NCBI GenBank assembly: GCA_029879645.1
Contig: JAOUPX010000009.1
Coordinates: 1 to 49,710 of the forward strand
Source of the DNA: Nitrospinota bacterium
Lineage (GTDB): Bacteria > Nitrospinota > Nitrospinia > Nitrospinales > Nitrospinaceae
Direction: 5' to 3'
Length of the DNA: 49,710 nucleotides
The notes below the pieces were generated by a model. The model saw nothing but the letters and a program-made list of their open reading frames with translations. It made no database searches and was not told where the DNA came from. Below, in pieces: positions 21,396-28,655 of this stretch (the first letter of the stretch is position 1; the number at the start of each line of letters is the position of its first letter). The position numbers and the translations under genes are program-made.

Positions 21396-21477
21396 AAAAA
21401 ATCCTCCCGTTGCCCAACCCCCAGCTAATATGCTGTAATGGTCTATTATCATTCACAACGTATTGGAAATAGGTTTT

Positions 21478-22812
21478 ATGAATGACTTTGACGTCATTAT
21501 TTTAGGCGGTGGAACAGCTGGTTGTTCTGCGGCGGAATCAGCTGCAAAACAGGGAGCCACTGTGGGGCTGGTGGAATGCGGTCGCATTGGTGGACATTCG
21601 CTGCTCCGCGGACAGCTTCCTCTCCAAATTGCATATGATTGGCAAAAACGTTCTGGAGAAAAGATTTCTTTTGCTCATCTTTTGGAAGAAGTGGAACTCC
21701 AATCCGTAATTATTGCCAAGAAAACAGAGGATCGCCTCAAAGATTCCGGTGTGGAGTTGATTCGCGGGACCGGCTTTTTAAAGGATCCCGGGAAAGTGTC
21801 TATCCGCCTGCCTGAAAAAGATATTGACCTTGAGTGCGGGAAAATTATTATTGCCACGGGATCCCAGCCCCATTCTAATTCGGCACTTCCGTTTGATGAG
21901 CATCGACTGCTCCCAATTGACCTTTTCATGAAAATGAAGAAACTGCCAGTTTCCATTTTAATTATCGGCGGAGACAAGGCTGCGCTGGAAGGAGCCCAAT
22001 TGTTTAATATGTTGGGTTGCAAAGTCTTTTTGGTAGATGAAAATACACGCTTGGTTCATGACCTGGATTCCTCTTTGATCGAAGCCCTTGAAAAAGAATT
22101 CAAAAAACTAAAAATCAAGGTTCTGCTGGGCAAAAAAATTATTTCCATTTTTAAATCTCCAGGCATGATAGACGTTACCCTTGATGGCGACGTTAAGTTT
22201 TCTACCGAAAAGATTCTGGTGTCGGCCGAACGTCATGGAAATACTTCCGGGTTGGGTTTGGATTCTCTGAAAATTGATTGCGGGAACCGTCGGGAAATAT
22301 GGATTAATGAGCAAATGGAAACATCCCGTAAGGGTATTTTTGCAGCGGGAAGTGTGACCGGGCGATCACGTTCTATTCAGATTTCAGAGGAAGAGGGCCG
22401 TGTGGCCGGGATCAATGCCGCGGGAGAACGACAATCCATTCAAAGAAGTCAGATTCCTTTTTACCTGCAAACAACGACTCCAATAGCAAGTATTGGCTGT
22501 CTTTTCGGGAAGGCGCATTTTGAGGGTTATCGTGCTGTGGAAGGCCGATATGATGTCGATCCGGGGGATACCACCGACTCATCTTTTCCTGAATTCTGTA
22601 AAATTGTAGTGGACCGTGATACGTCTAGAATCATTGGTGCGCAGGTATCGGGTCGTAATGCCTACGAAGTTATCAGTATAATTCAAACGAAAATGCGAGA
22701 AGGTGGTTTGCTCAAAGATCTTGCTCATTTTAATGGAAGTCGTGCGGCTCATTTAAAGCCTATTATTCAAGCGGCAAAAGCCTGTGCGCAGGCATTGTCT
22801 GTCCGGCGTTAA
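21478..22812 (+). CDS. FAD-dependent oxidoreductase of the lipoamide dehydrogenase/mercuric reductase fold lacking the redox disulfide
   Basis: The protein has the FAD-binding start DVIILGGGTAGCSAAESAAKQG, the second dinucleotide-binding region (VSILIIGGDKAALEGAQLF), the FAD-closing stretch EQMETSRKGIFAAGSVTG and a C-terminal dimerisation domain. The active-site segment, normally GGTCxNxGCxPSK, reads GGHSLLRGQLPLQ, so both redox cysteines are gone, and the C-terminal His-Glu dyad region reads LAHFNGSRAAHLKPI and is also altered. Disulfide or mercuric reductase activity is therefore not expected; a one-flavin dehydrogenase or a regulatory role is possible. I chose the ATG at 21478 over the TTG at 21463. 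The function is unknown. Confidence 0.8.
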   Translation: MNDFDVIILGGGTAGCSAAESAAKQGATVGLVECGRIGGHSLLRGQLPLQIAYDWQKRSGEKISFAHLLEEVELQSVIIAKKTEDRLKDSGVELIRGTGFLKDPGKVSIRLPEKDIDLECGKIIIATGSQPHSNSALPFDEHRLLPIDLFMKMKKLPVSILIIGGDKAALEGAQLFNMLGCKVFLVDENTRLVHDLDSSLIEALEKEFKKLKIKVLLGKKIISIFKSPGMIDVTLDGDVKFSTEKILVSAERHGNTSGLGLDSLKIDCGNRREIWINEQMETSRKGIFAAGSVTGRSRSIQISEEEGRVAGINAAGERQSIQRSQIPFYLQTTTPIASIGCLFGKAHFEGYRAVEGRYDVDPGDTTDSSFPEFCKIVVDRDTSRIIGAQVSGRNAYEVISIIQTKMREGGLLKDLAHFNGSRAAHLKPIIQAAKACAQALSVRR

Positions 22813-22958: not shown

Positions 22959-23519
22959 ATGAGTGAACAGAAAGAGATAAAAAAACCGGCCCCGGCCGCC
23001 AACCCTGCAAAGGATAAAAAGGACGAGGCACAGGATACTCTTTGGTCGCGGCGAGACTTTTTTTCTTTAGCCGGATGGGCCAGCTTCACCGCCTCATTGG
23101 GGCTGTCTTCCCTGTATTTTTTGAGGCTTCTGTTTCCCAGGGTGTTATTTGAGCCATCACCTAAGTTTAAGGCTGGTAACCCGGGCGATTATACTGTGGG
23201 AGAAGTGAGCACCAAATGGGTGTCTGACCAGCGGGTTTGGGTAGTTCGAGATGAGGAAAAGCTCTATGCAATTCTGGCCCGCTGTACCCACTTGGGGTGT
23301 ACACCTCTTTGGTTGAAAAGTGAGAGCAAGTACAAATGTCCATGTCATGGGAGTGGTTTTACTATGGATGGAATGAACTTCGAAGGTCCTGCACCGCGTC
23401 CCTTGGAGCGTTTGAAAGTAGAAGTGGGACCCGACGGGCAAATTGTCATTGATAAGAGCAAGAAGTTTCTGTTTGAAAAGGGAGAGTGGGGCAAACCCGG
23501 GGCGTTTCTCCGGGTATAG
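22959..23519 (+). CDS. petC: Rieske iron-sulfur subunit of a cytochrome bc complex
   Basis: The Rieske protein takes one electron from quinol at the Qo site and passes it to the c-type cytochrome. A Tat-type motif SRRDFFSLAG precedes a membrane anchor (about residues 38-60). The 2Fe-2S ligands are in CTHLGC (C109, H111; C114 in the disulfide) and CPCHGSGF (C127 with C129, H130). Size (186) is usual for a b6f/QcrA-type Rieske protein. It is the first gene of the six-gene bc unit; the ATG has no Shine-Dalgarno. The pet symbol follows the split cytochrome b downstream and does not imply photosynthesis. Confidence 0.93.
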   Translation: MSEQKEIKKPAPAANPAKDKKDEAQDTLWSRRDFFSLAGWASFTASLGLSSLYFLRLLFPRVLFEPSPKFKAGNPGDYTVGEVSTKWVSDQRVWVVRDEEKLYAILARCTHLGCTPLWLKSESKYKCPCHGSGFTMDGMNFEGPAPRPLERLKVEVGPDGQIVIDKSKKFLFEKGEWGKPGAFLRV

Positions 23520-23566: not shown

Positions 23567-24397
23567 TTGGCCAACAAGCCCAAAATTCCGAATATAGCCG
23601 AAATCATGGCGGACTTGAAGAGCGGTAAACTGTGGAATGATCTTGCCAAGAAGTTTACCGAGTCGCAGGTGTGGACTTCTTCCTTCCGGCATGGTTATGC
23701 GGACACGCCCCGAAACAGGGTGTTGCAGATAGCGAGCAATGTCTGGCTGCATTTGCATCCGGTTAAAATCCATCGACATGCATTACGGATCAAGTTTACC
23801 TGGTGTATGGGTGGTATTACGTTTCTTTTGTTTCTTTCCACCGTTGTTACGGGTGTCATTTTAATGTTTTATTACCGGCCGGTAGGGGAATACGCTTACT
23901 TTGATATGAAGTATCTGCAGTATGATGTTCCTTTCGGCATGTTGATGAGAAACATGCATCGATGGGCGGCGCATGCAATGGTGATCACCGTCTGGTTACA
24001 CATGTTCCGTGTTTTCCTGACAGGCTCTTACAAGCCGCCGCGAGAGTTCAACTGGGTTATCGGTGTGTTTTTGGTAACCTTTACCCTGCTTTTAAGTTTT
24101 ACGGGTTACCTTCTTCCCTGGGATCAGCTGGCCATGTGGGCGGTTACCGTAGGAACCAATATGGCCCGCGGAACCCCATTTTTAGGCCATGAGGGTCCGT
24201 TTCAGGAGTTCGTCCCTCTTATCAGTCCCAGGTATGATGCCCGATCCGTTTTGTTGGGAGGAAGCCTTGTAGGCCCCCCGGCTTTGTTGCGCTTTTACGT
24301 TTTGCATTGCATTTTTATTCCACTGGTGGCCGGTGCTCTTATGATTGTCCACTTCTGGAGAATCAGAAAAGATGGTGGTATTTCCGGCCCTCTTTAA
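23567..24397 (+). CDS. petB: Cytochrome b6-type subunit (N-terminal half of cytochrome b)
   Basis: This four-helix subunit binds the two b hemes and forms part of the Qo and Qi quinone sites. After a hydrophilic N-terminal extension of about 65 residues, the core shows helix A ([21 protein letters not shown]), helix B with heme ligands ([18 protein letters not shown]), helix C ([20 protein letters not shown]) and helix D with ligand His in [22 protein letters not shown]. The 276 residues exceed the usual ~215 of b6 because of the extension. The start is TTG with a strong ACGGAGG site. Confidence 0.93.
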
Positions 24398-24448: not shown

Positions 24449-25204
24449 ATGGCCACTGCCGTTAAAAAGAAGACTGCTGAGGATTTACCGGAAAAAGTCC
24501 ATGTTTGGCCTTATCTGGTTCGCCTTGAGTTTTTATGCTCGCTTATCGTTATTATCGGTTTGGCGGTGTGGTCGATTGTAATCGATGCCCCCCTGGAAGA
24601 AGCGGCAAATCCAACTAAGACACCTAATCCGTCCAAGGCGCCATGGTATTTTTTAGGCCTGCAAGATATTCTCGTATATTTTGATCCCTGGTTTGCGGGT
24701 GTTATCGCGCCAGTGTTGATCATTGTTGGTTTGATGTTGATACCTTACCTGGATGTCAATCCCAAGGGTAACGGTTACTATACTTATACAGAACGAAAAT
24801 TCGCTATTTGGGTATATTCATTCGGTTTCCTGGTTTTATGGATTGCCCTTATCATCATGGGTGTTTTCCTGCGCGGTCCTGGTTGGAATTTATTCATGCC
24901 TTGGCAGTATTGGGATCCTCATAAAGTGGTGGCTCTGGTAAACGTTGATCTTCCATATGCGTTTGGATTTCGGGATTACTGGTATTCGGCTGCATTTGGA
25001 TTCTCAGTGGTGCTTGGTTATTTTATTCTGGGAACTGCCGGTTATATGTTTTTGGAGCGCAAAGCCATCAAGAACGTCGGTATTCTTCGAATGTTGCTGA
25101 AGATCAATCTGTTGCTGATCATGATTGGAATTGTAATTAAAATTGTTTTAAGACTGGCGTTCAACATTAAATATATTATGGTCACTCCCTGGATTAACAT
25201 CTGA
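24449..25204 (+). CDS. petD: Cytochrome b subunit IV-type protein (C-terminal half of cytochrome b)
   Basis: The protein supplies the C-terminal helices of the split cytochrome b. The Qo-site motif normally written PEWY is APWYFLGLQDIL here, a variant seen in several menaquinol-type complexes. It has more membrane helices than plant subunit IV: about five, including the segment PVLIIVGLMLIPYLDVNPKG and a C-terminal pair (FGFSVVLGYFILGTAGYMF and INLLLIMIGIVIKIVL). The 251-residue length versus about 160 for plant subunit IV reflects these extra helices. It is 13 bases from the octaheme cytochrome gene. Confidence 0.9.
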   Translation: MATAVKKKTAEDLPEKVHVWPYLVRLEFLCSLIVIIGLAVWSIVIDAPLEEAANPTKTPNPSKAPWYFLGLQDILVYFDPWFAGVIAPVLIIVGLMLIPYLDVNPKGNGYYTYTERKFAIWVYSFGFLVLWIALIIMGVFLRGPGWNLFMPWQYWDPHKVVALVNVDLPYAFGFRDYWYSAAFGFSVVLGYFILGTAGYMFLERKAIKNVGILRMLLKINLLLIMIGIVIKIVLRLAFNIKYIMVTPWINI

Positions 25205-25217
25205 GATTCAAAATCAC

Positions 25218-27911
25218 ATGACAGAAGATTCGAATAGAAAAGAAGGAGAATTTGACGAGACCACCTCGTACAGTTTTCTGTATTTCCTGGTGGCTGGCGC
25301 CGCCTTATTTGTCACCCTGTGGGCTTTTTGGGATGATGAGTACACCCGGCGTGGTTATAAGGAATTTCAGGATGTTTTCTACAAGGAGCAATTTGCCCTT
25401 GCTGAAGCTGAATTTAAAGAGGTCAATGGGAAAATTCAGGCTAAAGAGCAAGAAATTGTAGCTGCCATAAACTCTGAAGAGCAGAAAATGGCGGATAGCC
25501 ATGAATATGAAGAACTTGCCGAAGCCGCTCTTGAAGCTCAAATTCATTTAGATGAGGTTACCGAAGAGCAGAAGTTTGCTAAAAGCCGGTTGGATGAGTA
25601 TTACTACTATTATAAAAAAGCCATGCACGAAGGTAAAAACTTCGAAGTCCAACTGGCCAAAGTTGAAGATACTAAAAAGGAAATTAAGCATTACGATCCC
25701 ATCATTGAAGATGCTGTTCGCGAAAGAGATGATGCCGAGGAGAAACTTCTAAAATTTAAGGCAAAAAAGGAAACTCTGCAAAAGGATCTTGCCAAGCTGG
25801 TCAATGATAAGGTTATTCTTGAGGGCCGGATGGATTATTACAAACCCTATCCTTTTTTCTGGAAACCGGCTGAAATTCTTCAAACCGTCATACCTTCTTA
25901 CGGTAAAAATAATTTCCAGGAAGTTACCTATAAAGTTGATCGCTGTCATACCTGTCACATTTCCTATGATGATGAACGTTATGAGAATTTTGAGAACCCC
26001 CTGAAATCCCATCCTAATCGGGAAATATACATAAAGAAGCACGATCCGCTGGTAACTGGTTGTACTTGGTGCCACAAAGGCCAGGGAACAGCAACTGCGC
26101 CAACGGAAGACGCTCATGGTTCTCATCACGAGATGGATCAATCTGTAGGCATTAACGAACCCATTCTTGCGGGTAGCTTGATGCAGGCAAACTGCCGGAA
26201 TTGTCATGCTGCCCAATTGGAATTGGAAGGCGCTCCGGTACTTACAAAAGGCAAAAAATTATTCATCAAACTTGGTTGCCATGGTTGCCATTTGGTTGAT
26301 GGTTATCAAAAAGAACGTAAAGTAGGTCCAAGCCTCCTGCGCATTGCGTCTAAAGTGGATTCCAGTTGGCTGGTTCGATGGGTCAAGAAGCCGAGAAATT
26401 ATCTGCCTAAAACCCGTATGCCCAATTTTAGCCTGAGTGACGAGGATACTTTAGCTATTTCAGCCTATATATGGAATGTCTCTGAAAAAGGTTATCAGCC
26501 GGCTGAAAAATATCAAGGGGGAGACCCGGCAAAGGGTAAAAAGCTTTTTGAAACAGTCGGATGCCAGGCCTGCCACAAAGTTAATGGAAACGGAGAATTG
26601 TTTGGTCCTGATTTAACGAATATCGGGCAAAAAGTGAATCCCGATTGGCTGGTCAGCTGGATTAAAAATCCGGACGAATATAATCCCAAGAGTATTATGC
26701 CTAATCTCCGGTTAACTCTGGAGCAGGCAACAGATATAGCCGCATATCTACTTCAGTTCGACCAAAAGCGTCCGCAAGAGGGCGTGGAGGACCAACTCAA
26801 TGATCCTGAGTTGATTAAACTGGGTGAAACCCTGGTGAGACGTAGAGGCTGTTTCGCTTGTCATGATATCAAAGGTATGGAAAAAGAGGGACGAATTGCT
26901 CCTGAATTGTCGGCTTTTGGTAACAAGCAAGTCCGGGAACTGGAGTTTGGCGATTCGCACATTCCTCATACGTGGGAATCATGGGCCCGTACTAAATTGA
27001 AAAATCCACGGGCTTATCGAACCGAGCGTATTCTGGATAAAATGCCCAACTTTGAATTAAAACCGGATGAAGTAGAAGCTTTGTTAGTTTTACTCAAAGG
27101 GTTTAATGGAGTAAAAATTCCAGAGCAGTACCAAAAAAATTATACCGAAAAAGAGAAGACGATAGAAAGAGGGCGACGTTTAATCGCTGAGTATAATTGC
27201 CGGGGTTGCCATGTGGTGGGCCGCACAGGTGGCCATATTCAGGAATACCTTTCATCTAAAACACAATATCCCCCTCCTTTGGAAATGGGTGATTATCATG
27301 TAGGAGAGCGATTAAAGGGGTCCTGGCTGTTCTCATTCCTTAAAAAGCCGACTCCTGTAAGAACATGGATGAATGTTCGTATGCCGACTTTTTCCTTTAC
27401 CGATAAGGAAGTCCGTGACATGACCGCTTATTTTGAAGCCATGTCTCCGAGCGAAATTAAGTATGAGACAGGAGTTCATGTCAAAAAGAGTAAAGCCAGT
27501 ATTCAAGAGGGCGTAAAAATTGCAAATTATATGGATTGCGGTAAATGTCACGATGAAGGAGCTAAAGGAATTGACTTCTCAGTTGCCGCCCAACGGTTAA
27601 AGGAGGGTTGGATCCCCAAGTGGTTGAAGGATACCCGGGGAATGATTCCTTGGACTTTAATGCCCAATCATTGGAACAAGGTTGATGATAAGTATACTGT
27701 TCCCACAAAATTCAGTGAACTCCGGACCTTTGAAGGTGGGAATACCGATTCTCATATCAAGCATATCAGTGATTTGATCCTTTCTTATAACACCGCTGAA
27801 GATATTGATTTTGAGGCCTCTTTGGGTGGCGGGGGTGAAGATGAGGAAGATACCGGAGATGGCGGTGCTGAAGAAGCGGCCGATGGTGAAGATGAAGAAG
27901 AGGATGAATAA
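25218..27911 (+). CDS. Octaheme c-type cytochrome with membrane anchor and long coiled coil, bc-complex partner
   Basis: This 897-residue protein has one N-terminal membrane helix (about 18-38), a long charged coiled coil (about 45-210), then eight CxxCH heme sites starting at residues 243, 282, 326, 354, 449, 545, 661 and 774. The first three sites sit close together in a small multiheme region. The last five each begin a cytochrome c-like domain with a likely Met ligand downstream in motifs such as TRMPNF, SIMPNL, DKMPNF, VRMPTF and TLMPNH. The C-terminus is an acidic low-complexity tail. Its position after Rieske and cytochrome b subunits implies that it takes the place of cytochrome c1 or f and passes electrons onward in the periplasm. 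I know of no standard subunit with this whole layout. Confidence 0.88.
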   Translation: MTEDSNRKEGEFDETTSYSFLYFLVAGAALFVTLWAFWDDEYTRRGYKEFQDVFYKEQFALAEAEFKEVNGKIQAKEQEIVAAINSEEQKMADSHEYEELAEAALEAQIHLDEVTEEQKFAKSRLDEYYYYYKKAMHEGKNFEVQLAKVEDTKKEIKHYDPIIEDAVRERDDAEEKLLKFKAKKETLQKDLAKLVNDKVILEGRMDYYKPYPFFWKPAEILQTVIPSYGKNNFQEVTYKVDRCHTCHISYDDERYENFENPLKSHPNREIYIKKHDPLVTGCTWCHKGQGTATAPTEDAHGSHHEMDQSVGINEPILAGSLMQANCRNCHAAQLELEGAPVLTKGKKLFIKLGCHGCHLVDGYQKERKVGPSLLRIASKVDSSWLVRWVKKPRNYLPKTRMPNFSLSDEDTLAISAYIWNVSEKGYQPAEKYQGGDPAKGKKLFETVGCQACHKVNGNGELFGPDLTNIGQKVNPDWLVSWIKNPDEYNPKSIMPNLRLTLEQATDIAAYLLQFDQKRPQEGVEDQLNDPELIKLGETLVRRRGCFACHDIKGMEKEGRIAPELSAFGNKQVRELEFGDSHIPHTWESWARTKLKNPRAYRTERILDKMPNFELKPDEVEALLVLLKGFNGVKIPEQYQKNYTEKEKTIERGRRLIAEYNCRGCHVVGRTGGHIQEYLSSKTQYPPPLEMGDYHVGERLKGSWLFSFLKKPTPVRTWMNVRMPTFSFTDKEVRDMTAYFEAMSPSEIKYETGVHVKKSKASIQEGVKIANYMDCGKCHDEGAKGIDFSVAAQRLKEGWIPKWLKDTRGMIPWTLMPNHWNKVDDKYTVPTKFSELRTFEGGNTDSHIKHISDLILSYNTAEDIDFEASLGGGGEDEEDTGDGGAEEAADGEDEEEDE

Positions 27912-27977: not shown

Positions 27978-28160
27978 ATGGAAAATTCAGGTCTCGAAAA
28001 CTTTCTGATTATTGCCTTAAAACCTGACAATATGCCCATTGGCGCCATGTTGGGGATTGTAGCTTTCTGGTTTTGGGTGGCAATTGTTCAAATGGTCAAA
28101 CACGACCGCCTTATCAAAGAAAACAAAAAAGACAAAATTTACGATGAAATGATCAAGTAA
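27978..28160 (+). CDS. Small single-span membrane protein of the bc operon
   Basis: The 60-residue product has one transmembrane helix (AMLGIVAFWFWVAIVQMV, about residues 23-40) and a Lys-rich tail (KHDRLIKENKKDKIYDEM) that by the positive-inside rule lies in the cytosol. Small single-span subunits are common in bc and b6f complexes, so it may be a structural subunit. It is 66 bases after the octaheme gene, and its stop codon is immediately followed by the GTG of the next gene. No family is recognised. Confidence 0.7.
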   Translation: MENSGLENFLIIALKPDNMPIGAMLGIVAFWFWVAIVQMVKHDRLIKENKKDKIYDEMIK

Positions 28161-28655
28161 GTGTCCCTCTTTATAATCACATTTGTGGCATTCGCAATTG
28201 GGATCGTTTTGATCCTCCTTCTCAAAAACGTTTCACCTCCACCCCCGCAAGAACAAATTCATTTTGAAAATCCAGAGGATAAGCCTTACTATTTAATTGA
28301 CCGCGAGGCTTTTAAAGAAAAGTGTTTGGAGTTTCTTGGTAAATTTAACCTTGAATACAAACATTCTATTTGGGCGAATGAACAGGAACTTGAAGTTGAT
28401 ATGTTCGATGAAACTCCCATTGTTGGCGGTAAATATCTCGCTCTCTGTATTTTCAATCCTCCCCACAGTTTGGTCGATTTATTCAAAGTGAAAGGGTTTT
28501 TAGAAAGTGTCAAAGGGGAGGGGGCGGCACGCGGAATTGTTATCACAACCGGCTATTTTTCAGATGACGCCAAAAAAGCGCTGGATGAAGATCCCGTAGA
28601 ACTCGTTAATGTAGTTACCTTCCTTAAATATTTAAAGAAATTTGATATATATTAA
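28161..28655 (+). CDS. Membrane-anchored protein with an Mrr/restriction-endonuclease-like domain
   Basis: One N-terminal membrane helix (LFIITFVAFAIGIVLILLL) is followed by about 135 soluble residues. The pattern GAARGIVITTGYFSDDAKKALDEDPVELVNVVTFLKYL resembles the end of Mrr_cat-type nuclease folds (VTTxxFxxxAxxxA...VELV). The preceding catalytic strand would be VGGKYLALCIFNPP, where the usual D...(E/Q)xK is not evident, so nuclease activity is doubtful and the fold may act in binding or assembly. It starts with GTG directly after the TAA of the small membrane gene, so it depends on coupled translation. It ends the bc operon. Confidence 0.65.
   Translation: MSLFIITFVAFAIGIVLILLLKNVSPPPPQEQIHFENPEDKPYYLIDREAFKEKCLEFLGKFNLEYKHSIWANEQELEVDMFDETPIVGGKYLALCIFNPPHSLVDLFKVKGFLESVKGEGAARGIVITTGYFSDDAKKALDEDPVELVNVVTFLKYLKKFDIY

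Follow-up and report, generated by a model that had tools for sequence, protein, structure and literature searches.

A conserved two-protein module with a predicted membrane-anchored pseudo-nuclease is linked to the b6f-like bc operon of Nitrospinota

The window analyzed here is a stretch of 49,710 nucleotides from a Nitrospinota bacterium (contig JAOUPX010000009.1). It contains an operon encoding a Rieske protein, a split cytochrome b and an octaheme cytochrome c, which ends with two small genes for a protein of 60 residues (hereafter p60) and a protein of 164 residues. The features of the locus are:

21463-22812, same strand as the Rieske gene and upstream of it: dihydrolipoamide-dehydrogenase-like flavoprotein
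22959..23519, + strand: Rieske iron-sulphur protein (PF00355)
23567..24397, + strand: b6-like N-terminal cytochrome b (PF00033)
24449..25204, + strand: C-terminal part of cytochrome b, or subunit IV (PF00032), without a p60 extension and compared below with fused forms
25218..27911, + strand: octaheme cytochrome c (eight CXXCH motifs) with one N-terminal membrane span
27978..28160, + strand: p60, single-span protein of 60 aa, ATG start
28158..28163, + strand: TAA/GTG junction at which the p60 and 164-aa genes abut
28161..28655, + strand: putative pseudo-nuclease of 164 aa, membrane-anchored, GTG start

Both terminal genes are present exactly as the initial annotation had described them, with a 60-residue single-span reading frame and a GTG-initiated frame at the very next base closing the bc unit. 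A metF-like gene begins 78 bases downstream of the 164-aa gene. The p60 protein carries a KPDN-x-P motif ahead of its helix (hydrophobic span at residues 19-37), followed by a charged tail with the C-terminus DEMIK. A p60 profile retrieved no match among PDB chains, and neither p60 nor the 164-aa protein has an NCBIfam model. The Rieske protein, b6-like cytochrome b, subunit IV and octaheme cytochrome c form a common core of the b6f-like bc complexes of Nitrospina, Kuenenia and Methylomirabilis. Lucker et al. (2013, PMC3578206) report on the core operon of N. gracilis and point out that Kuenenia and Methylomirabilis share its structure. Neither p60 nor the pseudo-nuclease was found mentioned in the accessible portions of that paper or of PMC12954380, which covers anammox bc complexes. 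The flavoprotein gene ahead of the Rieske gene is retained at this position in most Nitrospinales loci, with 30-56% identity, and its product is a possible electron-transfer partner.

The 164-aa protein has a hydrophobic span at residues 3-21 and, starting near residue 45, an Mrr/PD-(D/E)XK-like domain. In agreement with the Mrr-type fold proposed at the outset, the protein scores 31.1 bits (E 2.7e-7) against Mrr_cat (PF04471), for which the curated cut-off is 21 bits; the match covers profile positions 64-113, the C-terminal half. AlphaFold models of the window protein (mean pLDDT 84.7) and of a distant homologue with 31% identity (83.4) both consist of a membrane helix followed by the order alpha-beta-beta-beta-alpha-beta. 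Foldseek comparisons place both models closest to MspJI, AspBHI, Rpb5 and AF1548, all PD-(D/E)XK or Mrr-type structures, and MspJI is the best match with E 7.4e-6 for the window protein and 1.7e-6 for the distant homologue. Normalized by query length, the TM-scores reach a moderate 0.4-0.5, a level probably due in part to the membrane helix and linker, for which the matched structures offer no counterpart. Sequence-only searches of the PDB returned no convincing matches, with top candidates (4-oxalomesaconate hydratase and an HP0242 chimera) that look like chance, and AspBHI turned up weakly in one of these searches. The NACHT-associated inactive REase family (PF22722) also matches the protein, under its cut-off.

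The motif III lysine is found in none of 88 distinct full-length family members, whereas every one of them keeps an acidic residue (D or E) at motif II. The window protein retains the motif II acid as E78 and has I97 at the position of the motif III lysine. In a profile alignment with a canonical Mrr protein encoded in the same genome, I-E-C-K of that protein faces A-L-C-I of the window protein. Since the lysine is absent from every member, the family is, by sequence, one of pseudo-nucleases, and the suspected lack of a catalytic triad thus extends to a lost catalytic set across all homologues checked. The related nucleases MspJI, AspBHI and AF1548 (Mrr_cat PF04471 or PD-(D/E)XK) share the order of secondary structure elements and the motif II acid, and the Mrr-like C-terminal half (KGI-ITTGYF ... 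ELI) is common to the pseudo-nuclease and Mrr_cat nucleases. The pseudo-nuclease differs from these enzymes by the loss of motif III (E/Q)xK, the gain of an N-terminal membrane helix, the lack of a DNA-recognition domain and its tie to p60 and the bc complex. A functional parallel might be the N-terminal domain of Rpb5 and PF22722, in which a nuclease-type fold likewise lacks the catalytic set and presumably serves for structure or binding. What sets the pseudo-nuclease apart from both is its membrane anchor and its link to a respiratory complex, and the sequence of Rpb5 is not closely related. The match to Mrr_cat and the universal motif II acid would also fit an active membrane-bound nuclease, for example in defence, that lies beside the bc operon by chance. 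This explanation is highly improbable given the missing lysine, the syntenic distribution across the whole order, the failure to match any known defence model in PADLOC (best E 0.056) and the fact that no relatives were found in viral contigs.

The stop codon of p60 and the GTG start of the pseudo-nuclease either abut (TAAGTG) or overlap by one base (TAGTG) in 47/47 Nitrospinales comparisons. Such a junction suggests termination-reinitiation, by which the two proteins would probably be made in a coupled way in Nitrospinales. A readthrough product joining p60 to the Mrr-like frame was rejected, since the TAGTG overlap seen in many relatives sets the genes in different frames. The idea that the DEMIK terminus is conserved solely as a nucleotide-level cue for reinitiation was also rejected, because DEMI[KR] is kept even where the genes lie more than 100 bases apart (L087). 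The gene pair is not a product of chance, because it recurs across the order and because, between the window and same-genus relatives, synonymous change in the 164-aa gene is saturated while nonsynonymous change amounts to about 0.09-0.12 per site.

Homologues with 83-85% identity occur in Nitrospina and Nitrospinaceae, and identities to the 164-aa window protein range from 57 to 85% across four Nitrospinales families (f1-f4). Wherever a Nitrospinales locus covers both, the pair directly follows the octaheme cytochrome c gene. Examined absences in the order come from contigs that end inside the cytochrome c gene (G028 and G039) or from assemblies without the subunit IV gene (G011, G013 and G017). 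A widened profile of the 164-aa protein and the p60 profile were both run over 387 genomes. The widened profile gave a clean split between full-length proteins with the membrane helix (E < 1e-49) and ordinary Mrr proteins matching over the nuclease domain only (E > 1e-20). Full-length pseudo-nucleases are encoded in 49 Nitrospinales genomes, in a genome of a sister family (G001) and in eight genomes outside Nitrospinota, and free p60 is present in all of these. Sampling of the respective phyla recovered the pseudo-nuclease in 16/18 genomes (phylum of G213), 2/4 (phylum of G262), 2/2 (phylum of G363 and G225) and 26/95 (phylum of G300). Together with G302 and G193, this amounts to 98 sampled genomes in at least six phyla with a full-length pseudo-nuclease. 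The p60 gene adjoins the pseudo-nuclease gene in nearly every locus read; it is missing at contig ends in L155 and L160, and L109 is ambiguous.

Gene order varies outside Nitrospinales. The pair lies on the opposite strand and convergent with the bc operon both in the sister family (G001) and in the phylum of G213. In G302, G300, G193, G262, G363 and G225, the pair is found away from bc genes. The expectation that relatives carry the pair beside bc genes holds across Nitrospinales, the sister family and a second phylum and fails in several other phyla. Both a match to the PD-(D/E)XK fold and the pair beside bc genes in relatives were recovered, the two outcomes on which the initial annotation had staked its proposal. 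Neighboring genes at the unlinked positions are varied and include an MCP-type chemoreceptor gene, a molybdopterin oxidoreductase and ccm genes, with the pair of G193 located near the cytochrome c maturation genes ccmF and ccmH. In G001, a GltD-like NAD(P) oxidoreductase (580 aa, L039 9604-11346) adjoins the pair, and relatives of this oxidoreductase are found beside more distant bc operons of G070, G071 and G073 (L131, L132 and L133). Throughout the phylum of G213, the pair has a divergently oriented neighbor, a gene for a 159-aa polyferredoxin (L134 6825-7304 and relatives), and polyferredoxin relatives flank both bc operons of G262 (L127 4736-5146; L128 10641-11042).

Free p60 is also present in phyla other than Nitrospinota, and in 11 genomes of nine families outside Nitrospinota the N-terminal region of subunit IV is made up of the first ~40 residues of p60, with the KPDN-P motif and the helix. 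The operons with fused p60 are likewise of the Rieske, cytochrome b, subunit IV and multiheme type. The final dozen residues of p60 (KDKIYDEMIK) have no counterpart in the fused forms. By gene-fusion logic, the occurrence of p60 as part of subunit IV elsewhere argues for p60 as a component of the b6f-like bc complex. The widened profile detected a pseudo-nuclease in none of the 11 genomes with only fused p60. Genome G262 encodes the free pair as well as a separate operon with p60 fused to subunit IV, and the pseudo-nuclease copy of G065 is cut by a contig end. The one clear exception is G173, where free p60 including its tail is encoded between two cytochrome b genes and the profile search detected no pseudo-nuclease. 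With Nitrospinales counted as one family, the partner occurs in 9/10 families with free p60 and in 0/9 families with fused p60 (Fisher p 1.2e-4, a value that ignores deeper relatedness). A cognate subunit IV is encoded in all nine divergent carriers tested.

The scattered positions in six genomes and the varied neighbors, including the chemoreceptor gene, could point to a separate membrane sensor or regulatory module only loosely tied to the bc complex, in which the Mrr fold senses a ligand or protein. We consider such a module quite unlikely given that p60 and subunit IV are fused in nine families, that linkage to bc genes occurs in differing gene orders of separate lineages and that every divergent carrier tested has a cognate bc complex. 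The occurrence of full-length copies only in genomes with free p60, with G173 as the counter-case, supports the pseudo-nuclease as a partner of p60 and of the bc complex. We think it probable that p60 is an accessory subunit and that the pseudo-nuclease is a non-nuclease partner on the cytoplasmic (n) face, either as an accessory subunit or as an assembly or stability factor. The fusion data favor an accessory bc partner, which is more specific than the assembly or regulatory factor suggested initially, and do not separate a subunit from an assembly factor.

The charge distribution after the span, the only basis for its topology, predicts that the pseudo-nuclease is oriented N-out/C-in with the domain on the cytoplasmic side. 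The p60 protein would supply a detachable helix that lies alongside subunit IV. Held in the membrane by a helix of its own, the pseudo-nuclease might then pack on the tail of p60 and on the n-face, where the dead Mrr/PD-(D/E)XK domain would serve as a protein-protein interaction module. As the dedicated partner of p60, the pseudo-nuclease could stay as a permanent subunit or act in assembly or stability. The b6f complex contains the small single-helix subunits PetG, PetL, PetM and PetN. We propose, by analogy, that p60 similarly contributes a short helix adjacent to cytochrome b and subunit IV. The p60 protein differs from these subunits in its longer charged cytoplasmic tail, its paired second protein and its fusion to subunit IV elsewhere.

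A narrower version of the accessory-partner reading takes the Mrr-like protein as a transient factor for assembly, heme insertion or quality control, with p60 as the handle to which it binds. Where p60 is fused to subunit IV, the Mrr-like protein seems not to be needed, as would be expected of a helper adding a separate helix, and the proximity of the pair to ccmF and ccmH in G193 fits a role in assembly or heme insertion. However, the ccm neighborhood occurs in one genome only, and the stop/GTG coupling to p60 within a structural operon suggests that the Mrr-like protein is produced alongside a subunit. We hold the transient factor as a tentative possibility, less likely than not to account for the pair.

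The conserved two-protein module, including the synteny of the pair, its wide spread and the p60 fusion, is reported here as new. The pair is undescribed in solved structures, in NCBIfam and in the literature searched for an Mrr-like respiratory protein, a search that left most subscription papers outside its scope, so that an earlier mention is possible. If correct, the accessory-partner reading adds a subunit class to the b6f-like multiheme complex III of marine nitrite oxidizers. A restriction-enzyme fold would then have turned into an apparent structural part of a textbook enzyme, the bc complex. It would also provide a handle on how marine nitrite oxidizers may run electrons backwards for reducing power. 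With p60 fused to subunit IV in other lineages, a structure would put the idea to a direct test.

The pseudo-nuclease might also act as an n-side docking platform through which the bc complex connects with a Fe-S or NAD(P) electron-transfer module of the cytoplasm that serves reverse electron transport. This suggestion is based on the GltD-like neighbor in G001 and the polyferredoxin neighbors in the phylum of G213, with relatives of both beside bc operons elsewhere. According to PMC12954380, anammox (Kuenenia) bc complexes of this class have NAD(P) reductases on the negative (n) side, and differ from the complexes considered here, which would have p60 and the pseudo-nuclease instead. The anammox reductases make n-side accessory modules plausible for this class of bc complex, and a docking platform would parallel these NAD(P) reductase subunits. 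We consider a docking role unlikely. As a separate observation on operon variation, one bc operon of G262 (L127 8061-9623) has the two parts of cytochrome b joined as one protein of 520 aa, without p60, and the second (L128 7744-8796) is the one with p60 fused to subunit IV.
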